The notes under the pieces are model-generated. The model had not been told where the DNA came from and ran no database searches. It saw only the letters and a list, made by a program, of their open reading frames with translations. Below, one piece after another: positions 24,900 to 41,519 of a stretch of 64,000 bases of DNA (positions are counted from its first letter, which is position 1; the number at the start of each line of letters is the position of its first letter). The translations under genes were made by a program, and so were the position numbers. This stretch comes from Nitrospirota bacterium. GTDB lineage: Bacteria > Nitrospirota > Thermodesulfovibrionia > UBA6902. The stretch covers positions 1 to 64,000 of the forward strand of contig JACRLN010000057.1 in NCBI GenBank assembly GCA_016215115.1. The letters run 5' to 3'.

Positions 24900-25226
24900 A
24901 CTGATACACCGCTGTCAAAAAAGACTATTTAGTGTTTGTCCATAAATTGCTATTTTTTATTTTTGTCATGCCCGAAGCCTGCCCTCGAATGTCGTAATCG
25001 GGGGTCTTTAATCGGGCATCCAGAACTTATTAAAAAGACTGGATTCCCGCTCAACAGACTGCGGGAATGACGCCTCCAAGAATGTACAGACTATTATGAA
25101 ACCCTTATTAATCAATTCAACCAATATAACTAATAAAGCAACTACAATTATTATAATGCAGAAATCACAAGAAAAAGATTAAAATTAATATTACCTTGAT
25201 TTTAAATTATTATTTTTATTTATACC
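24900..25226. repeat. Intergenic region with a two-arm palindromic repeat
   Basis: A 327-bp spacer between divergent genes. At 24965-25073 a repeat begins gtcatgcccgaag, carries aatcgggcatccagaac, and continues with a second arm actggattcccgctcaac to gactgcgggaatgacg. It is the same family as at 44659-44732 (which shares ttcccgctcaacagactgcg). The remainder is AT-rich; no gene is visible. The AT-rich stretch 25090-25220 probably contains the promoter of the downstream membrane protein, but I cannot assign boxes. Confidence 0.7.
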
Positions 25227-26238: not shown

Positions 26239-26346
26239 AGTAGGCTAAGAGAAACTCCTGGGCTTCTTGTCGGACAGATTATGAAGATGACAAAGGGCAA
26301 GGCCAATCCTAAGATCGTGAATGAGATATTGAACAACAATGAATGA
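26213..26346 (+). pseudogene. gatB: Decayed 3' fragment of gatB
   Basis: Read with two corrections, this stretch gives VVKEVEKFRVG, then EKLLGFL, then VGQIMKMTKGKANPKIVNEI. This is the conserved C-terminal tail of the Asp/Glu-tRNA amidotransferase subunit B (YatY tail: LGFLVGQVMK...GKANP..VNE). An in-frame TAA (26246-26248) replaces the expected Lys codon of GKEK, and one base is missing near 26270 (ttcttgtcgg where ttcttggtcgg would restore the frame). No other part of gatB is nearby. The natural gatB stop (TGA 26344-26346) coincides with the start of the nuclease-helicase gene, so this marks a rearrangement or integration boundary. Confidence 0.72.
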
Positions 26347-28702
26347 AGTCGATATTATTAAATGCTCTGAAGAAGAGAAGTACTTTTATAATCGAATTAT
26401 CTCTCAAACATTAAAAGAAACCAGTTATAAGAATGTATATCCTCAACATATTTTTATTGAAAGTACAGGGCGACAAAGAAAAATAGATTTCGCAATAATT
26501 ACCAATAATACAAAGATTGCTATTGAACTTGATGGATATACTTATCATGCCAGAGAGAAAGTCGGTCGAGATAAATTCGATGATGATTTACAAAGACAAA
26601 ATGAATTAATTTTAGATAATTGGAAAGTTATTAGATTTTCTTGGGATCAAGTACAGAAAAATCCCGAAACTTGCAAGGATTATTTAAGAAGATTAATTGT
26701 TTCTGATCCAGAACTGCATCCTTCCTTAAATTGCGTTATTTTTGAACCTCATATTTTACAGATCGAAGCTTTAAACCTTCTTCAAGAAAGCAGAGAGAAA
26801 GGAAATAAAAAAGGATTAATTGTTATGGCAACGGGGCTTGGGAAAACTTATTTATCAGCATTTGACTCCAATAGATTTGAAGGGAGAGTATTATTTATAG
26901 TTCATAATAATTCGATACTTGAACAGGCAAGAGAGTCTTTTTTAAAAGTAGCCCCTCAAAGATTATCGGGCTTTTTCAATGGATATGAAAAACAACCAGA
27001 GAAAAATTTACTTTTTGCGAATATCAATACATTGGGTAATGACAACTATTTAGCAAAATTTAATAATGATGAATTTGATTATATAATTATCGATGAATTC
27101 CATCATAGTGCTACTCAACGTTATAAGAAGGCAATTGATTACTTTAGACCGAAGTTCTTGTTGGGAATGACGGCAACCCCTAATCGAACTGACAAGAAAT
27201 CCATTCTGTATTTAGTGGACAATAATTTAGTTTATCAAGTGACTCAACTTGAAGCTATTGAAAGAGGATTTTTAACACCATTTTATTACTATGCACTCAA
27301 AGATAACGTTGATTATTCAAATATCAGGCATAATGGATACCGGTATAATTTGTACGACTTGAATAAAGCTTTGATAATAAAAAAGCGCGATGAAGAAATT
27401 ATAAAAAAATACAAAGAGATGACTAATTGTGCAAAAGCAATAGCTTTTTGTGTAACGATTGATCATGCAAAAAGAGCTGCAGAACATTTCAACGAAGCCG
27501 GTATTCCTTCTATTGCAATACATTCAGGTCTGAGCAATGAAGAAAGGATAAATCATATATCAGACTTCAGGCAGAATAAATACAAAGTTGTTTTTGTTCG
27601 AGATATTTTCAACGAAGGGATTGATTTCCCCGATGTTGAAGCTCTATTGTTTATGAGACCCACTGAATCTAAAATAATATTTACCCAACAACTTGGCAGA
27701 GGATTAAGGTTAAGCAATTCAAAATCGGCTGTTAAAATCCTTGACTACATTGGGAACTATGTGAATGCGGATAAGATTGTTGAATATCTCTCTTCTTACG
27801 GCAAGACGTTAACCTTAAATGATCTTAAGATGAAACCACTGTTTTATTTTGACAATGGTTGCAGGGTAGAGTTTGAACAATCGTCTATCGATATGCTTAC
27901 TGCATTAAATATTAATATCCCTTCTGAAGATTCCCTGCTTAAAGCTTTTTTTGAGCTTTGTATTAAATTGAGAAGAACTCCAACTATGCCAGAGATACAA
28001 TCTCAATGCAAATATAAAATTAAAAACTATTTAGAAAAATATATTACCTGGAATAACTTCATAGAAAGAATAAGAACTTTAAATTCTGAAATAGATACTA
28101 CGAATTTGCAAGTAACCAGAGAATTGTCTTTAGAAAAAGCTGAAGAATATGCAGAACTCTTAGATCATGATTTTGCCGAGTTTAAAGAAGAAATCATTCA
28201 ATGTTTAGATGCTGTAAATTCAGTTAAAGATAAATTTATAAATATCGGGCATAATCTAACACAAAATGAGAGTAGAGATTCTTTGCAGGGCATACTTGAA
28301 GTCATAGATAACCCTATCATTAGATTAAAAGAGATAACTTTGATTCTTAGTCTCAGATTTGAGAAGCCCGATAAAATATTATTAGGCGAACCTGATATTG
28401 GGGAAGACAAAAACAAATTACTTCTTGAATCGCTTGAATTTGATAATAAGGCAATATCGGATTATAGCGAGTTAGTCGCAATAAATTTACGGTCTTTCTG
28501 TAATTCGTCACTGGCATATACTTTCCCGAGAGGTTTTATACGTATTATTCATCTTGCTCAGCAGTATTCTTTTTTAATTAAACAAATAGATGAAAATGAA
28601 TGTGACGTTTTGAGCAATTTATATATGATTGCGATACAAATGTTACGACTCCTTGTTGAAGCAAAATCTGATATTGATAAGATGTTGGAACTAAGTTGTT
28701 AA
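26339..28702 (+). CDS. Nuclease-helicase fusion (Vsr/DUF559-like N-domain plus SF2 helicase)
   Basis: 787-residue protein, probably a DNA-targeting defence enzyme. Residues about 1-125 resemble a PD-(D/E)xK/Vsr-like nuclease of the DUF559 type (ID50FAI, AIE63LDGYTYH70, DLQRQNELILDNWKVIRFSW). A superfamily 2 helicase follows: Walker A MATGLGKT (163-170), DEFH box (252-255), LGMTATPNRTD, and motif VI TQQLGRGLRLS. The last about 260 residues are helical, with no recognised domain. The start lies in the gatB tail with no obvious ribosome site. Codon use is AT-rich compared with flanking genes, consistent with acquisition. Target and cofactors are unknown. Confidence 0.85.
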   Translation: MNEVDIIKCSEEEKYFYNRIISQTLKETSYKNVYPQHIFIESTGRQRKIDFAIITNNTKIAIELDGYTYHAREKVGRDKFDDDLQRQNELILDNWKVIRFSWDQVQKNPETCKDYLRRLIVSDPELHPSLNCVIFEPHILQIEALNLLQESREKGNKKGLIVMATGLGKTYLSAFDSNRFEGRVLFIVHNNSILEQARESFLKVAPQRLSGFFNGYEKQPEKNLLFANINTLGNDNYLAKFNNDEFDYIIIDEFHHSATQRYKKAIDYFRPKFLLGMTATPNRTDKKSILYLVDNNLVYQVTQLEAIERGFLTPFYYYALKDNVDYSNIRHNGYRYNLYDLNKALIIKKRDEEIIKKYKEMTNCAKAIAFCVTIDHAKRAAEHFNEAGIPSIAIHSGLSNEERINHISDFRQNKYKVVFVRDIFNEGIDFPDVEALLFMRPTESKIIFTQQLGRGLRLSNSKSAVKILDYIGNYVNADKIVEYLSSYGKTLTLNDLKMKPLFYFDNGCRVEFEQSSIDMLTALNINIPSEDSLLKAFFELCIKLRRTPTMPEIQSQCKYKIKNYLEKYITWNNFIERIRTLNSEIDTTNLQVTRELSLEKAEEYAELLDHDFAEFKEEIIQCLDAVNSVKDKFINIGHNLTQNESRDSLQGILEVIDNPIIRLKEITLILSLRFEKPDKILLGEPDIGEDKNKLLLESLEFDNKAISDYSELVAINLRSFCNSSLAYTFPRGFIRIIHLAQQYSFLIKQIDENECDVLSNLYMIAIQMLRLLVEAKSDIDKMLELSC

Positions 28703-28845: not shown

Positions 28846-29824
28846 ATGAGTGTTATCGCGGGGTGTTCTCTATTTAACGGAGTTATTCTTTTAGCTGACT
28901 GTAGGGTTACTATAAAAAGATTCGGTAAGCCGGACGTATTATGTGATAATGCCCAAAAATTATTTCCTTTAACTAACACAACAGCAGTTGGGTTTGTAGG
29001 CGACTTAAATGCAGCTTCACAGATAATCAGAGAACTTTTCAGACAGATAACTTTCTCATATAAGAGAGGCAAAACAAACGGGCTCCATTCATTAAGTATA
29101 TCTAAATGGTTGCCTCGTTATTTTCGTTTTTATTATAGACAATTGTCGAAAAAGCAAAGTGTAAGTCGTATAGATTTTATGGTAGGCTCTGTTATTTTGG
29201 ATCGTCAGAATATAATTGAACGATCAAAAGTAGTTGAGATTATGGAAAGATTCAGATTAGGGAAATTATCCATTCAGAGAAATTGGATACCAAACATTCT
29301 TGTTAATATTCTCAAGGCTAATAATTCTCATATTATCTTGTCTGATGTCCCAGCCAACTTGCTTTATTATATGCAGTCTCCAGACTTTATCCCACAGCAT
29401 CTTGTTCCTTTAGAATTTGCTGCTATTGGTTCAGGACAGGACACCATAATTGAAATTGACAGAAATGCAGACTGGATTTTTGCCGGAGATGTAGGCAATT
29501 CTTTTATGGAAGCAAGTGCCTTTCGCCAAACTGTCAGTTCATTTATCGAAAAAAAATTCAATCTTGTCGGTCGGTGGTATGTATCCAGTCATAAAAATTC
29601 ATAGCAAAGGGTTAGAACTTCTTGGCCAAAGTGCTCAAATCCCTATCGGGGGCACAACATTTGAATTGAAGATAGATTCTAACGGAAAATGGATACAGAG
29701 AAACAGCACAACAGGAAAAGAAATTAAATTATTGTTGCCATGGGAAATCGATCCTCATAAATTTCATAAGGATGAAAGATTTGATGACCTTAAAGATGCT
29801 TTAAATAAATTTCGGATGTCATAG
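28846..29824 (+). CDS. Proteasome-like Ntn hydrolase, frameshifted near its 3' end
   Basis: The N-terminus MSVIAGCSLFNGVILLADCR aligns with the start of 20S beta/HslV/Anbu subunits. With Ser2 as residue 1, the Asp (D18) and Arg (R20) fall exactly at canonical positions 17 and 19. AQKLFPL with K38 corresponds to the KKLFQI segment carrying Lys33, and VGFVGD to the AGLVGD strand. Removing Met would expose Ser2 as the nucleophile, with no propeptide. The first frame ends at 29604; from about 29575 the +1 frame continues (GGMYPVIKIHSKGLELLGQ to a stop at 29822-29824), giving about 325 residues if joined. No ATPase unfoldase lies beside it. Possibly a defence protease or self-compartmentalised peptidase (inference). 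Confidence 0.72.
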
Positions 29825-29892
29825 TGATATGTATAATTATCAATTACGACATCAAATATCGCATGAGGTGGGGGGGGTGAGGAGGAATAAGT

Positions 29893-32121
29893 TTGTCCTT
29901 TGAAATAAAAGCCAACTTTGCAAATCTAAAATTGAAATTTTTACAATGGCGAACTGCATCCTTTGTAAGAATCGGTAAGACTTGGAGTCATATCAGTTTT
30001 TACAGTATTACCATTTTAAGCATACTTATGGCTTCTATACTTTATCTGCCATCTGCTCAAAAGGCTATTGCTCAATTTAATAATGTTGATACCTTATTAA
30101 TAGCTATTGGCGGGATGCTTGGGACAATGATTGCTCTTGTCTTTACCCTCTCGGTTATCCCGATTCAGCGGGCAGTTGAAACCTTCAGCCCCTCTGTTAC
30201 ATGGATGTATAGAAATGACCGCATAACACAATTTATTTATTTTGTTTTAGCTCTATTTTGCTTATTGCAATTTATGTTTGCAATCGAAAATGTCATTCAA
30301 GTGAGTAAAGTTTTGCTATTACCTGTTGGAATTTTCATGTTGGGAGCATCTTTTGATTTGCTTCGCTGGCATTATCGGAGAATAAGCCAAATGCTTGATC
30401 CAGGAGAGGCGATTAAGCGGTTGACAGCGGAGATTGAGAACTACATAAGACGGACCCAACAAAGACTATCTCGTTTAGCTCAAATTCAGTGGGATATGAT
30501 GACAGAGAAACAAAAAAAGGAACAGCATAGAATACAGATTGAATCAGCCTATTATTTGAGTTTAAAAGGCTACAATAACCAAATTAATCGATGGACTGGT
30601 GAACTGGCGGAGATTTCATATAAAGCAGTTGGTAAGAGTGAAATTTATTCTTCTGAAATTGCAATTGCTGCATTAGTGAGAATCGCCTGTTATTATTTAG
30701 ATACCCGGAAAGATAACATGATTGTTTATTCTTCTCCTGACGAATATTTTCTGTCTTCAGAAAGTGACGTTAATGCTGTGCTGACATCAATATATGAGCA
30801 CATGAAGAATATAAACCGAAGTGCGGTCACTCTCAAGGCTGAAACATCATGTATTCATATTGTAAGAGCGCTTGGCAGAATTGCCAGCCACACAGCGAGC
30901 CTTCAGTCTCCAGCTTTCCGGGAATACTCTGTGCCCATTACGAATTTGCCACTCGGATATTTGGAAGAATGCATATTGTCCGCTCAAAGAAATTGTCTGG
31001 ACGATGTTGTATTACAGGGAAGCAGAGATGTGCTGCATGTTACAAAAAGTGTACCCCATAACGTGCAGATTACCGATGTCTACTTGTCTGCAATAAAGGC
31101 GTGGAATAGTATGATACTTACTTTTCTTGTAACGGGAAAGGGTGTATTTGCGAACGAGATTACAAAGGATTTAATGGCGTTTTTATTCCATTTGCTTAAA
31201 CAAAAACATTATCAATTTAATAAAACTCTTGGAGAAGTTCTTGAGAAAATTGAGGGCTTGTTGCCATATGCAATAGCGCATGAAAAAATGTTCGGTTCAC
31301 CATATGTTGGCTTGCCGCTTTCGGTCCCATATGATCTTTTAACTTCCTTATCTATTGCTGATCTGGTTGCACAAGTTGAAGTACAAACAAAAGAGGAAGA
31401 TGACAAAGAATGGGTGAATCCATATCATGATTTTATAGAAATAAACGAGACAATATATCGCCATTTTCGTAGCATTGCAGAAAATGTTGATTTTGGTTCA
31501 AGCTTTCTGCTATGGCATATCATGCAGGCGATTAAACAAATTGCCAAGGTTTATTTACACCATCTGGACGATCCAGTAACTGAAGATATCGGACATCAAG
31601 CGAAGCTTGCTAACCAAGTATCCTGGTACTTATCATTTTTCTGGGTTACTTTTTCAAAAGCATCTACATTTAATTATCTTCGTGCTCGTGAAGCATGTGA
31701 TATCATTGCGTGGACTGGCTTATCTTTTCATAAATATCGAATGCTTTATCTTGCAGGATTATCCTCTAATATTACAGAATCATGTATCAGTAATATTTCA
31801 TCAATTGTGGAATCATATTGCAGATTAACTAAAAATGTTGATCCATATCAAATAGCAGAGCTTTTAGGTTATCTCTGCTATATTCGAATGCTTGCCGAAA
31901 AAGAAAACGATAAATCACTGTTGAAAAAAACTGATGAAATAATTAAAAAACCAAAATCGCTTTCAGACGAAAAGTGGGCAGAGGTAATAGAATCATTAGA
32001 GGATCAAAAGGAACACCTTCAGAACGAACTTACAAAAGATAGAGATTACAGTTTGATGGATAATGTAATGACTCTGCTACAAAAGCTTTTACGGCAGAGG
32101 GATAATCAGGAGAAGCATTGA
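29893..32121 (+). CDS. Large DUF2254-like membrane protein with long cytoplasmic C-domain
   Basis: 742 residues. The N-terminal third has four hydrophobic segments (about residues 33-52, 68-92, 110-132, 136-156), with LIAIGGMLGTMIALVFTLSVIPIQ resembling the DUF2254 family of predicted membrane proteins. The rest (about 160-742) is soluble and mainly helical, without recognised motifs. It starts at TTG 29893, supported by a strong ggaggaata site 4-12 bp upstream and by the lack of an in-frame ATG nearby. Its stop overlaps the TTG start of the Schlafen-type gene by 4 bp, so the two are translationally coupled. It may be a membrane effector or anchor of the island (inference). Confidence 0.72.
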   Translation: MSFEIKANFANLKLKFLQWRTASFVRIGKTWSHISFYSITILSILMASILYLPSAQKAIAQFNNVDTLLIAIGGMLGTMIALVFTLSVIPIQRAVETFSPSVTWMYRNDRITQFIYFVLALFCLLQFMFAIENVIQVSKVLLLPVGIFMLGASFDLLRWHYRRISQMLDPGEAIKRLTAEIENYIRRTQQRLSRLAQIQWDMMTEKQKKEQHRIQIESAYYLSLKGYNNQINRWTGELAEISYKAVGKSEIYSSEIAIAALVRIACYYLDTRKDNMIVYSSPDEYFLSSESDVNAVLTSIYEHMKNINRSAVTLKAETSCIHIVRALGRIASHTASLQSPAFREYSVPITNLPLGYLEECILSAQRNCLDDVVLQGSRDVLHVTKSVPHNVQITDVYLSAIKAWNSMILTFLVTGKGVFANEITKDLMAFLFHLLKQKHYQFNKTLGEVLEKIEGLLPYAIAHEKMFGSPYVGLPLSVPYDLLTSLSIADLVAQVEVQTKEEDDKEWVNPYHDFIEINETIYRHFRSIAENVDFGSSFLLWHIMQAIKQIAKVYLHHLDDPVTEDIGHQAKLANQVSWYLSFFWVTFSKASTFNYLRAREACDIIAWTGLSFHKYRMLYLAGLSSNITESCISNISSIVESYCRLTKNVDPYQIAELLGYLCYIRMLAEKENDKSLLKKTDEIIKKPKSLSDEKWAEVIESLEDQKEHLQNELTKDRDYSLMDNVMTLLQKLLRQRDNQEKH

Positions 32122-33958: not shown

Positions 33959-35213
33959 ATGAATACATATCTTATCTTAATTATTGCCGCCTACTTTCTC
34001 GTAGTCATCTTCGGCTACTGGCTTGACTATTTAAATCTTTCACATTTAAAAAAATATGGTCCGATTATCCCTCCTGAATTTGAAGGGTATATTGACCAGG
34101 CCTTGCTGAGCAAGACACAGGCTTATAATATTGAACATACAAAGTTTGATTTTATCTCATCTATATTTAACAATGTCGTATTCCTGATATTTATATTTAT
34201 CTTCCTGAATATCTACAATTCATGGATTGTTTCACTCAATCTTTCCTTTATATTGTCCGGACTCGTTTTCTTTCTGCTTTTGACATATGCCGAAACTATA
34301 ATATCAATACCATTCAATACCATTCAGTCTCTACAGTACATTTAAGATAGAGAACAGGTACGGGTTCAACACAATGACATTTAAACTATGGATAAGCGAT
34401 ACGATAAAATCCCTCTTAATCTCGACTGTCCTGATGGGTTTAGTCATAACCATCGGACTTCTTATTATTCAAAAAAATCCTGACATATGGTGGCTATGGG
34501 TGTGGTGTTTCTTCCTTGGGTTCGGAGTCTTCATGATGTACATTTCACCGTATGTAATAGAACCGCTTTTTCACAAGTTCACACCAATTGAAAACGAAGA
34601 ACTTGAAAGCGGAATCCGCAATCTCATGCAAATAGCCGGAATAAAAGTGAGCAGGGTTTTCAAGATGGATGCGTCAAAAAGGACCAAACATACGAATGCA
34701 TACTTTACCGGTATCGGAAAGGTTAAAAGGATCGTGCTTTATGATACACTTATTGAGAAAATGAATAAAGATGAAGTCCTCGCAGTCCTGGCCCATGAAG
34801 CCGGCCACTGGAAGAAAAAACATCTTTTGAAACATTTAATTGCTACAGAGGCTATTGCGCTTATTGTTATGTTTGTTTCATATCAAATCCTTCAAAGTAA
34901 TTTTCTTTTAGCTCTTTTTCACATTGAAAACAGCTCTTTTTTTGCAAAGATCGTTATTCTGGGATTCATCGGTTCGATTGTCTCCTTTCCTTTCAGTCCC
35001 GCATTTAATTATTTTTCAAGACGGCATGAAAATGAGGCTGATAAGTATTCTTATGAAATGACAGGAAATAAAGAGAGCATGATAAGCGGGCTTGTTAAAC
35101 TTTCAAAGGACAATCTCTCCAACCTGCATCCCCATCCCCTGTACGCCCTGTTCCACTATTCCCACCCGCCTGTGCTGAAAAGAATACGAACGATACGTGA
35201 ACTGGTGAAGTAA
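33959..35213 (+). pseudogene. M48 CAAX-type (Ste24) zinc metalloprotease gene split by a 10-bp duplication
   Basis: Two adjacent frames (33959-34345 and 34374-35213) together encode one Ste24-like membrane protease: N-terminal membrane helices (YLVVIFGYWLDYLNL), then after the break the zinc motif HEAGH (codons 34794-34808) and the third ligand Glu in ENEADKYSYEM. The break is an exact tandem copy of caataccatt (34305-34314 and 34315-34324). Deleting one copy restores ISIPFSLYSTFKIENRYGFN, the conserved Ste24 junction (F.LYSTF.IE..FGFN.MT). As written the gene is disrupted. It could be an allele prone to slippage, a true pseudogene or a sequencing/assembly error. The separate downstream frame keeps all the catalytic residues. 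Confidence 0.9.
34305..34324. repeat. 10-bp tandem duplication disrupting the M48 protease
   Basis: caataccatt is repeated head to tail with no spacer. The identical sequence extends by 1 base to the left and 2 to the right (34304-34326). Ten bases shift the reading frame by +1; loss of one unit gives an open frame of 1245 bp. Short perfect tandem units of this kind can expand and contract by replication slippage. Confidence 0.95.
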
Positions 35214-38303: not shown

Positions 38304-41300
38304 ATGTTAAAGAAATATTTAAAAAATATATTTGAGGTCAGCAAACGAGGGGACGCAACTGAATCAAGTTACTACTCCTGCATCGATGAGCTTTTTAAGA
38401 ATTATGCTGAATCAATAAACAAGAAGCAAGTTCATGTTACGACTATCCCTCAAAAGACCGATGCCGGAAACCCGGATTTCAGGGTATGGGATGGGAAACA
38501 GCATATCATTGGGTATATTGAAGCTAAAGCTCCAACCGTTAAATATCTGGATCAAATAGAAGACACTGAGCAGTTAAAACGCTATCTGCATACCTTCCCG
38601 AATTTGATATTAACCAACTTCTTTGAATTCAGACTTTATCGGGATGGTCGAATGATTGATAGTGTGCAGATTGCCAGACCTTTTTTAATACAAAAACTAA
38701 ACACAATTCCACCCGTTGAAAAAGAGCAGGAGTTTTTGAAGCTCCTTGAAGGTTTCTTTTCTTTTTCACTGCCAAAAGCATATACGGCAAAGACCCTCGC
38801 TGTAGAGCTTGCAAAAAGGACAAGGTTTTTAAAAGAGCAGGTCATAATTGAGGAATTGAAAGAGGAAGAGAAAAAGGGCAAAGGATTTATCCTCGGCTTT
38901 TATGAGGCGTTTCAGAAGTATCTTATACACGGCCTTTCAAAAGAAGATTTTGCAGACCTGTACAGTCAGACAATAGCCTATGGACTTTTTGCGGCAAGGA
39001 CACGCGCTGAGAACGGTTTTAACAGAAAGCTTGCATTCGACTATATACCGAGGACCATCGGGATATTAAGAGATGTTTTTAAGTTTATCTCCCTTGAAGA
39101 TTTACCTCCTCAGATGGAATGGGTTGTTGACGACATATCCGAAGTCCTTTCAGTTGCCGATGTAAAACAGATACTTCATAAATTTTATCATGAAGGCAAA
39201 GGGAGCGACCCGATCATTCATTTCTATGAGACATTCCTCGCGGAATACGACCCGAAGGAAAGGGAAAAGCGAGGAGTCTATTACACACCTGAACCTGTTG
39301 TCTCTTATATTGTCCGTTCTTTGCACAATATTCTAAAGAACTATTTTGATAAGGGAGACGGCTTTGCATCAGGCTCCGTAACCGTGTTGGACCCTGCGGC
39401 TGGAACGCTTACATTCCTTGCTGAGGCGGCCAAATTGTCGGTTGATGAATGCACTTCCAAATACGGCGAAGGAACCAGAACACCCCTTATAAAGGAATAT
39501 ATCCTTCAAAATTTCTATGCCTTTGAATTAATGATGGCGCCTTATGCTATCGGTCATTTGAAAATGTCTTTTATGCTTGAAGAGCTCGGATATAAACTTC
39601 AGAAGGACGAGAGATTTAATCTCTATCTCACAAATACCCTTGAAATGGATGAGCTTGAGCAGACCTCACTGCCGGGGATGGCGTCACTTTCAGAGGAATC
39701 GCATCTTGCGGGAATTGTTAAAAAGGAAAAACCCATACTCGTAATACTTGGCAATCCACCTTATTCAGGCCATTCAACCAATATCGGAGACTGGATATCA
39801 AAAGAGATAAAGGCATATTATCATGTTGACGGCAAGCCTCTCGGTGAAAAAAATCCCAAATGGCTTCAGGACGATTACGTGAAATTCATACGTTTTGCGC
39901 AGTGGAAGATAGATCGGGCAGGTGAGGGAGTTTTAGGCTTTATCACAAACCACAGCTACCTTGATAATCCGACATTCAGGGGAATGCGGCATTCATTGAT
40001 GCAAAGTTTTGACGAGATTTATCTGCTCGACCTTCACGGCAACAGCCTTAAGAAAGAGAAGAGCCCCGGCAGCTCAAAAGATGAGAATGTATTTGATATT
40101 CAGCAGGGCGTTGCCATTTCACTGTTCATTAAAAAAGGGGAAAAGAAAAAAGAGCCGTTCTATCCAACGCCGGAGCCTTCACCCCAGATGGATATTTTTA
40201 CGGAGGAAGAAAAGGAGGTTGAAGAAAAGCCCAAAAGGCACAAATGCAAGGTTTACCATTCGGAAATATGGGGACTCAGGGAGCATAAATATGACTGGCT
40301 CAGTAAGAACGACATAACAACAACGAAATGGAAAAAGTTAAAACCCAAATCCGAATTCCATTTCTTTGTGCCGAGAGATGAAAAACTGTTGAAGCAGTAT
40401 GAGTCATATCCGAAGATAACAGATATCTTCCCTGTTAACAGCGTGGGAATCGTTACTTCAAGAGATGGCTTTGTTATAGACGATGATAAAACGATTCTTA
40501 AGCGCCGTATCCGTATGTTCATAGATAAAAAAATGACGGATGATATTATAAGGCAGACCTTTTCGTTGCCCGACACCTCAAAATTCAATTTAGAAAAAGC
40601 TCGTGAAGCTGTCAAAGACGATATAAATTGGGAAGACAAGATAACGAAGATTCTATACAGACCTTTTGATGAGCAGTGGATTTTTTATCATGATGCCGTT
40701 ATCGAACGTTCACGCAGAGATGTTATGCAACATATGATGCAAGAGAACGTGTCTATTTGTTTTATGAGACAAGTTTCTTTAGAAGAAAGCTACACTCATT
40801 TTATTGCAACTGAACACATAGTTGATAACAGGACATTTTTAAGCAGTAAAGGGATTATTCAGCAAGCACCCCTCTATCTTTACAAGCCAAAAGAAAAACC
40901 TAAAAAGCGTTCCTTAAACAGCGTCATGATGCTATTTGAACCGGAGGCAGAGTATTTTGTGAGAAAGCCGAACATTGCTCCGGCAGTGTTTGAAAACCTG
41001 GAAAAGGCTTTTAAGAAAAGACCGGAATCCGAACAAATCTTCTTTTACATTTACGCCGTGCTTCATTCAAACATCTACCGCACAAAATATGCCGAGTTCC
41101 TGAAAACAGACTTTCCAAGAGTCCCTTTTACGAGAGACCGTAAGTTTTTTATGATAATGGCTGAGTACGGCAACTCCCTTGTCGAGCTTCACCTGATGAA
41201 GGCTAAGGAGCTGGATAAAACCAAAGTAAAATTTCGGAGCGGCAGGAATAAGATAGAGAAGCTAACATATGATTCCGAATCAGAACGTCTTTACATAAAC

Positions 41301-41519
41301 GAAGATCAGTATTTTGAGGGAATAGTGAATGAAGTATGGGTGTACCGGGTAGGTGGTTATCAGGTTTGTGAGAAATGGCTGAAAGACCGAAAAGGAAAAA
41401 CATTATCTCTTGAGGACATAAAACATTACTGCAAAGTTGTGACCGCTTTGCAAAAGACAATAGAGATTCAACACTTAATTGATAAAATTTACCCTGAAGT
41501 TGAGAAGGAAGTTGTTTAA
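38304..41519 (+). CDS. Single-chain restriction-modification enzyme (type IIG/ISP-like)
   Basis: 1071 residues combining nuclease, adenine methyltransferase and specificity parts. The N-terminal PD-(D/E)xK nuclease has GNPDF with D58 and YIE73AK75AP. A helical region follows. The methyltransferase has SAM motif I VTVLDPAAGTLTF (about residue 358) and motif IV LGNPPY (N484), so it makes N6-methyladenine. The C-terminal about 450 residues match the type ISP specificity region (KVYHSEIWGLREHKYDWL, FRSGRNKIEKLTYD, IKHYCKVVTALQKTI). No helicase domain is present, unlike LlaGI-type ISP enzymes. It stands alone, with no separate methylase or specificity gene, and protects the host from foreign DNA. 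The recognition site cannot be read from sequence. Confidence 0.9.
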   Translation: MLKKYLKNIFEVSKRGDATESSYYSCIDELFKNYAESINKKQVHVTTIPQKTDAGNPDFRVWDGKQHIIGYIEAKAPTVKYLDQIEDTEQLKRYLHTFPNLILTNFFEFRLYRDGRMIDSVQIARPFLIQKLNTIPPVEKEQEFLKLLEGFFSFSLPKAYTAKTLAVELAKRTRFLKEQVIIEELKEEEKKGKGFILGFYEAFQKYLIHGLSKEDFADLYSQTIAYGLFAARTRAENGFNRKLAFDYIPRTIGILRDVFKFISLEDLPPQMEWVVDDISEVLSVADVKQILHKFYHEGKGSDPIIHFYETFLAEYDPKEREKRGVYYTPEPVVSYIVRSLHNILKNYFDKGDGFASGSVTVLDPAAGTLTFLAEAAKLSVDECTSKYGEGTRTPLIKEYILQNFYAFELMMAPYAIGHLKMSFMLEELGYKLQKDERFNLYLTNTLEMDELEQTSLPGMASLSEESHLAGIVKKEKPILVILGNPPYSGHSTNIGDWISKEIKAYYHVDGKPLGEKNPKWLQDDYVKFIRFAQWKIDRAGEGVLGFITNHSYLDNPTFRGMRHSLMQSFDEIYLLDLHGNSLKKEKSPGSSKDENVFDIQQGVAISLFIKKGEKKKEPFYPTPEPSPQMDIFTEEEKEVEEKPKRHKCKVYHSEIWGLREHKYDWLSKNDITTTKWKKLKPKSEFHFFVPRDEKLLKQYESYPKITDIFPVNSVGIVTSRDGFVIDDDKTILKRRIRMFIDKKMTDDIIRQTFSLPDTSKFNLEKAREAVKDDINWEDKITKILYRPFDEQWIFYHDAVIERSRRDVMQHMMQENVSICFMRQVSLEESYTHFIATEHIVDNRTFLSSKGIIQQAPLYLYKPKEKPKKRSLNSVMMLFEPEAEYFVRKPNIAPAVFENLEKAFKKRPESEQIFFYIYAVLHSNIYRTKYAEFLKTDFPRVPFTRDRKFFMIMAEYGNSLVELHLMKAKELDKTKVKFRSGRNKIEKLTYDSESERLYINEDQYFEGIVNEVWVYRVGGYQVCEKWLKDRKGKTLSLEDIKHYCKVVTALQKTIEIQHLIDKIYPEVEKEVV

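Follow-up and report, generated by a model that had tools for sequence, protein, structure and literature searches.

In Anbu, a bacterial relative of the proteasome, the N-terminal nucleophile directly follows the initiator methionine. Fuchs, Alva and Lupas (2021) described 22 further families of prokaryotic proteasome homologues, among them PHD (Proteasome Homolog of Deltaproteobacteria), with reported members in Proteobacteria, Firmicutes and other bacteria (PMC8665760). In that survey the nucleophile of proteasome homologues is either Thr1 or Ser1, propeptides are restricted to most beta and HslV subunits, and no suggestive genome context was seen for any of the survey's families; the insertion sites given in its text are the N-terminus, S3/S4, after H1/H2, H3/H4, and the C-terminus (PMC8665760).

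We have analysed a 64,000-nucleotide stretch of a Nitrospirota genome (the window) that contains a gene related to these systems. It very likely belongs to the proteasome-like branch of the Ntn hydrolases, in a very rare lineage of ~320 residues, and its reading frame is broken in this genome. The original prediction described a 252-residue proteasome-like subunit with an N-terminal Ser nucleophile at 28846-29604. This open reading frame exists as described and Asp18, Arg20, Lys38 and the VGFVGD motif lie where they had been placed, but it is not the whole gene: its end at 29604 is a frameshift stop, and sequence coding for the homologous remainder is found in the +1 frame as far as 29824. Comparison with the longer homologues L005 and L006 shows that the final ~13 residues of the 252-residue product are out of the ancestral frame. 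The features of the gene are as follows.

28846-29604, plus strand: open reading frame of 252 residues as first described, representing the front three quarters of the proteasome-like Ntn hydrolase gene.
28849-28851, plus strand: Ser2 codon, the proposed N-terminal nucleophile at the position of proteasome Thr1.
28897-28905, plus strand: Asp18, Cys19 and Arg20 codons, with Asp18 at the Asp17 position and Arg20 at the Arg19 position in the hhalign register with 20S beta.
28957-28959, plus strand: Lys38 codon, at the Lys33 position in the same register.
28999-29001, plus strand: Gly52 codon, at the oxyanion-hole position Gly47, from the hhalign register and a ten-sequence comparison.
29200-29358, plus strand: S7-S8 hairpin insertion (residues ~119-171), ~50 residues and partly helical, from alignment with L005 and L006 and the secondary structure of two models.
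29416-29436, plus strand: FAAIGSG motif, corresponding to GSG (Ser129) in beta subunits and HslV.
29549-29578, plus strand: site of the frame break, with a run of eight A residues at 29549 and a 4-bp tandem duplication (GTCG) from 29566, and a net shift of one base relative to the homologues.
29566-29824, plus strand: remainder of the gene, in the +1 frame, encoding the strand SVGGMYPV and a C-terminal extension to the true end; the product would be ~325 residues if read through.

The correspondence with the proteasome was established by profile-profile comparison, as the original prediction had suggested. A profile of three long members aligned by hhalign with the 20S beta subunits of the same phylum and the genome's own HslV with a probability of 80.7% and an E value of 1.3e-5, compared to 0.2% for a reversed alignment control, and in the expected register: G12, D18, R20, K38 and G52 are paired with G11, D17, R19, K33 and G47, respectively. 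There is a 4-residue insertion preceding Lys38 relative to 20S beta, and gap-free extension of the alignment places S2 on T1. The proposal that Ser2, Asp18, Arg20 and Lys38 are proteasome-type residues is thus borne out by this register and by the closest homologues (from Nitrospirae, Syntrophaceae and Scalindua), which retain all of them as well as Gly52. Among the ten sequences compared, residue 2 is invariably Ser or Thr and the Asp, Lys and Gly are kept throughout; that Ser and Thr interchange at residue 2 across relatives, with nothing else occurring there, supports a role in catalysis. The FAAIGSG motif is invariant in proteins P0004, P0005 and P0006 and matches AAIGSG in the genome's own HslV, such that the correspondence reaches into the second half of the protein.

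The absence of a propeptide also holds, as only six in-frame codons are present upstream of the ATG of the window gene. The same is true more broadly: nine of the ten sequences compared, including four close family members, have no more than eight in-frame codons before the Met, which excludes a propeptide in these.

Single-sequence profile scores are weak. The window protein scores 15.5-16.4 bits against Pfam PF00227 (16.4 bits at E 0.0074), below the cut-off of 22.4, whereas the homologues P0005 (26.1 bits) and P0006 (30.7 bits) exceed it, so that significance in PF00227 is reached through these family members and not by the window protein alone. Against the archaeal beta model TIGR03634 the window protein scores 18.9 bits (E 8.6e-4), far from the equivalog cut-off of 224 bits, and an NCBIfam scan at E values up to 1 gave no match to an Anbu or proteasome-type protease model. 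Weak matches to the AMO (PF02461) and BlaEC profiles were set aside as chance.

Structural predictions point in the same direction. Two AlphaFold runs on four-row alignments gave mean pLDDT values of only 40 and 35 (23-36 over residues 1-40 in the first model), but despite the low confidence the order of elements agrees between the two models: six strands, two helices, a strand, the helical insertion, further strands, two helices, two strands, and an extra beta region with helices. When the first model was used in a Foldseek search all 50 matches listed were proteasome or Anbu chains, although none had an E value below 0.001. VIA-align comparisons, all to proteasome or Anbu chains (including Anbu 5nyw), gave Z scores of 9.0-10.4 over 91-114 residues with rmsd values mostly of 2.1-2.9 Å, the matches with Z up to 10.4 falling within residues 16-188. 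VIA-align re-ranks Foldseek's own matches. Models that lack a clear match typically reach a best Z of 7-8, which a Z near 10 exceeds only moderately, and the uniformity of the match list is the stronger argument. That the VIA-align list contains no other structural family does not in itself exclude any. The low-confidence model thus gives support rather than proof for the Ntn alpha-beta-beta-alpha sandwich that had been expected. Together with the homologues and the profile-profile comparison, the fold search supports a proteasome-like fold, a Ser nucleophile and a separate lineage, and the original prediction finds support as regards both fold and family.

Two elements distinguish the lineage from the core fold. 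Relative to 20S beta there are ~50 more residues between S7 (residues ~109-117) and S8 (LLYYMQSPDF), an insertion that is absent from both 20S beta and HslV, and the C-terminal extension of ~75 residues contains the conserved stretches GGT..EL, W.Q.N..TGK.I..L.PWE and F.DL. As judged from the alignments, the S7-S8 insertion and the C-terminal extension are particular to this branch.

A scan of 84,980 species genomes identified homologues at four loci.

L005, Syntrophaceae MAG: 321 residues, full length, with the same catalytic residues.
L006, Candidatus Scalindua: 319 residues, full length, with the same catalytic residues.
L007 (the same place as L003), Nitrospirae MAG from the phylum of the window: 84% identical, cut at the contig end.
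L008, gammaproteobacterial MAG: distant, with Thr at residue 2.

The 320-residue form is sparsely distributed. Within the class of L005 it was found in that genome only among 155, and within the class of L006 likewise in its own genome only among 75; no relative was found among 46 other genomes of the same order as the window's genome. Searches of viral contigs (with queries P0001, P0002 and A2) and of phage records yielded no relatives, and plasmids only distant Thr2-type relatives, in Salmonella and Vibrio. The distant Thr2-type homologues (L002:10001-11041 and L004:5001-5804 on the Salmonella and Vibrio plasmids, and L008:8001-9047 in the gammaproteobacterial MAG) have a C-terminal AIA in common, and L008 adjoins a RES-domain gene. 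A relic containing only the C-terminal region of the lineage is present at L057:1477-1857.

The frame break is evident from the intact homologues, which are 319-321 residues long. In L005 and L006 a single frame continues through SVGGLYP to the end, and the part missing from the window frame, the strand SVGGxYPV and ~70 further residues, is found in the +1 frame (from SVGGMYPVIKI to FRMS), ending at 29824. Comparison of the N-terminal 67 codons with those of L003 gives a dN of 0.089 and a dS of 0.83, indicating that purifying selection acted on the gene until recently. Most simply, the frame would have been broken by the 4-bp GTCG tandem duplication from 29566, since with only one copy of the unit the original frame would still read LVGG; the alternative is an indel in the run of eight A residues, such as one extra A. 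The window has many exact 4-base tandem pairs (3.3 per kb), and the duplication is a presumed cause for that reason.

It is possible, though we lean against it, that the break is absent from the organism, either as an assembly or sequencing error or because it is bypassed by slippage at the A run, and that the full 325-residue protein is made. Conservation of the tail matches that of the rest (46-48% identity to both L005 and L006 across residues 240-325), and the A run sits at the break. However, the GTCG duplication lies exactly at the break, and a -1 ribosomal slip on the A run, as read from the sequence, leads to the wrong frame and an early stop. Moreover, the neighbouring M48 (CAAX-type) peptidase gene (33959-35213) is also split, into 33959-34345 and 34374-35213, by a 10-bp tandem duplication starting at 34304 rather than a homopolymer error; reading in the +1 frame across this break gives a normal M48 sequence, and 10-bp tandem pairs are rare, with two in 64 kb. 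The presence of two frame-broken genes 5 kb apart favours real decay over homopolymer error, and the copy in this genome is probably inactive, or rescued only in part. A run of eight G residues (29870-29877) directly before the DUF2254 gene is another possible slippage site.

The lineage resembles 20S beta (PF00227, TIGR03634) in the register of the nucleophile, Asp17, Arg19, Lys33, Gly47 and the GSG motif, and in the order of strands and helices, but differs in having Ser rather than Thr, no propeptide, the 4-residue hairpin insertion, the S7-S8 insertion and the C-terminal extension, as well as in its lack of an alpha partner or ATPase nearby and in its 18.9 bits against the 224 of the beta equivalog. 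HslV is of the same fold family and shares the AAIGSG motif; the protein described here is nearly twice as long, has a Ser nucleophile and has no adjacent HslU, whereas the genome's HslV is beside HslU elsewhere. Anbu shares the nucleophile right after the Met and is among the structural matches, but its length and C-terminus differ and no Anbu model was matched in NCBIfam at E values up to 1. Connectase is a member of the same superfamily in which extra elements have likewise been added to the core, but its insertion is between S3 and S4 (PMC8665760) instead of S7 and S8. PHD and the other 2021 families, compared by description only, are also prokaryotic homologues lacking propeptides and a dedicated ATPase nearby, and PHD too occurs in deltaproteobacteria, but the S7-S8 hairpin is not among the insertion sites in the survey text (PMC8665760).

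The suggestion that this is a distinct lineage of proteasome homologue stands as to its separateness, but because the survey already covers Thr1 and Ser1 nucleophiles and the limits on propeptides, a Ser freed by Met removal without a propeptide belongs to a published class, and the main points of the original prediction fall within a known kind (PMC8665760). The lineage may be related to PHD. It could itself be known, as a member of a 2021 family such as PHD or as a PMI variant, and we hold this as a tentative alternative to a separate lineage: PHD has the broad bacterial distribution noted above (PMC8665760), one homologue is from Syntrophaceae, and three genomes of the phylum of that homologue (L005) contain shorter Ser2 relatives beginning with MS (L058:1159-1782, L059:1495-2133 and L060:1159-1791; 207-212 residues), which are possibly the published PHD family. 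These short proteins have neither the S7-S8 insertion nor the C-terminal extension, however, and the 320-residue form occurs in very few genomes, both of which argue for the separate lineage. The L058 and L059 homologues adjoin a gene whose product, by reading, resembles a methionine-synthase or UroD type protein.

Among the neighbouring genes covered by a Pfam scan, none resembles HslU, Mpa or Rpt, as had been claimed, and the ordinary HslVU pair of this genome is on another contig (C26). Upstream (26339-28702) is a gene encoding a 787-residue helicase with an MTES_1575/DUF559-like nuclease N-terminus, for which the PADLOC model mREase_IV (type IV restriction enzyme) is the best match (E 2e-70). 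Downstream are genes for a DUF2254 membrane protein, an AlbA_2/Schlafen protein (at 32118), the M48 pseudogene, a penicillin-binding protein and a type ISP methyltransferase; the last (38304-41519, 1071 residues) corresponds to a type ISP-like methyltransferase with a specificity domain, apparently without the helicase and nuclease part. A dispersed, MITE- or REP-like repeat of ~110-150 bp at 24924-25076 has over 25 copies in this genome, of up to 99% identity, and also occurs in other genomes of the genus.

Restriction genes are also found beside some of the other members: L007 is placed after type I hsdR, hsdS, a HEPN-like gene and hsdM, and the L057 relic adjoins hsdR and small genes resembling an MNT/HEPN pair (all named by reading). 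These neighbours, with the restriction helicase, AlbA_2/Schlafen and type ISP methyltransferase genes of the window and a patchy occurrence suggestive of horizontal transfer, raise the possibility that the protein is a defence-island effector or accessory protease, cleaving a host or phage protein when triggered. We consider this unlikely, as the full-length L005 and L006 are set among housekeeping genes without restriction neighbours, no neighbour is conserved, and the protein matches no PADLOC model; a literature search on Ntn hydrolases in defence islands found nothing. A role in defence, as suggested by the restriction genes beside some members, is a lead and not a result. The more specific proposal, in which a mobile Ser-type Ntn hydrolase, equipped with an S7-S8 helical insertion and a C-terminal domain of its own, would serve alongside restriction systems as a defence protease and constitute a further, unlisted kind of prokaryotic proteasome homologue, is improbable.

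How intact members of the lineage would act can be proposed from established Ntn chemistry, in which methionine aminopeptidase removes a Met that precedes Ser. Removal of Met1 would free Ser2, the amino group of which would serve as the general base, and Ser2 would then attack a peptide or other amide bond, helped by Lys38 and Asp18. The enzyme may be a peptidase or transpeptidase, possibly without an unfoldase of its own; its substrate could perhaps be a protein, with the extra elements governing assembly or access. That the lineage has kept the fold but is no enzyme, as for proteasome alpha subunits, is very improbable, since although the secondary proteasome-site residues appear not to be kept (the Ser169 position appears to be Val here and Asp166 is not retained, by reading of the alignment with homologues), conservation among relatives at only 16-26% identity is highest at the nucleophile, Asp, Lys and oxyanion Gly.

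The gene adds a rare and well-marked lineage to a family that ranges from degradation machines to a protein ligase, and the intact homologues in Syntrophaceae and Scalindua are on offer for biochemistry. Where the 2021 survey saw no suggestive context (PMC8665760), the restriction genes beside some members provide a testable lead.
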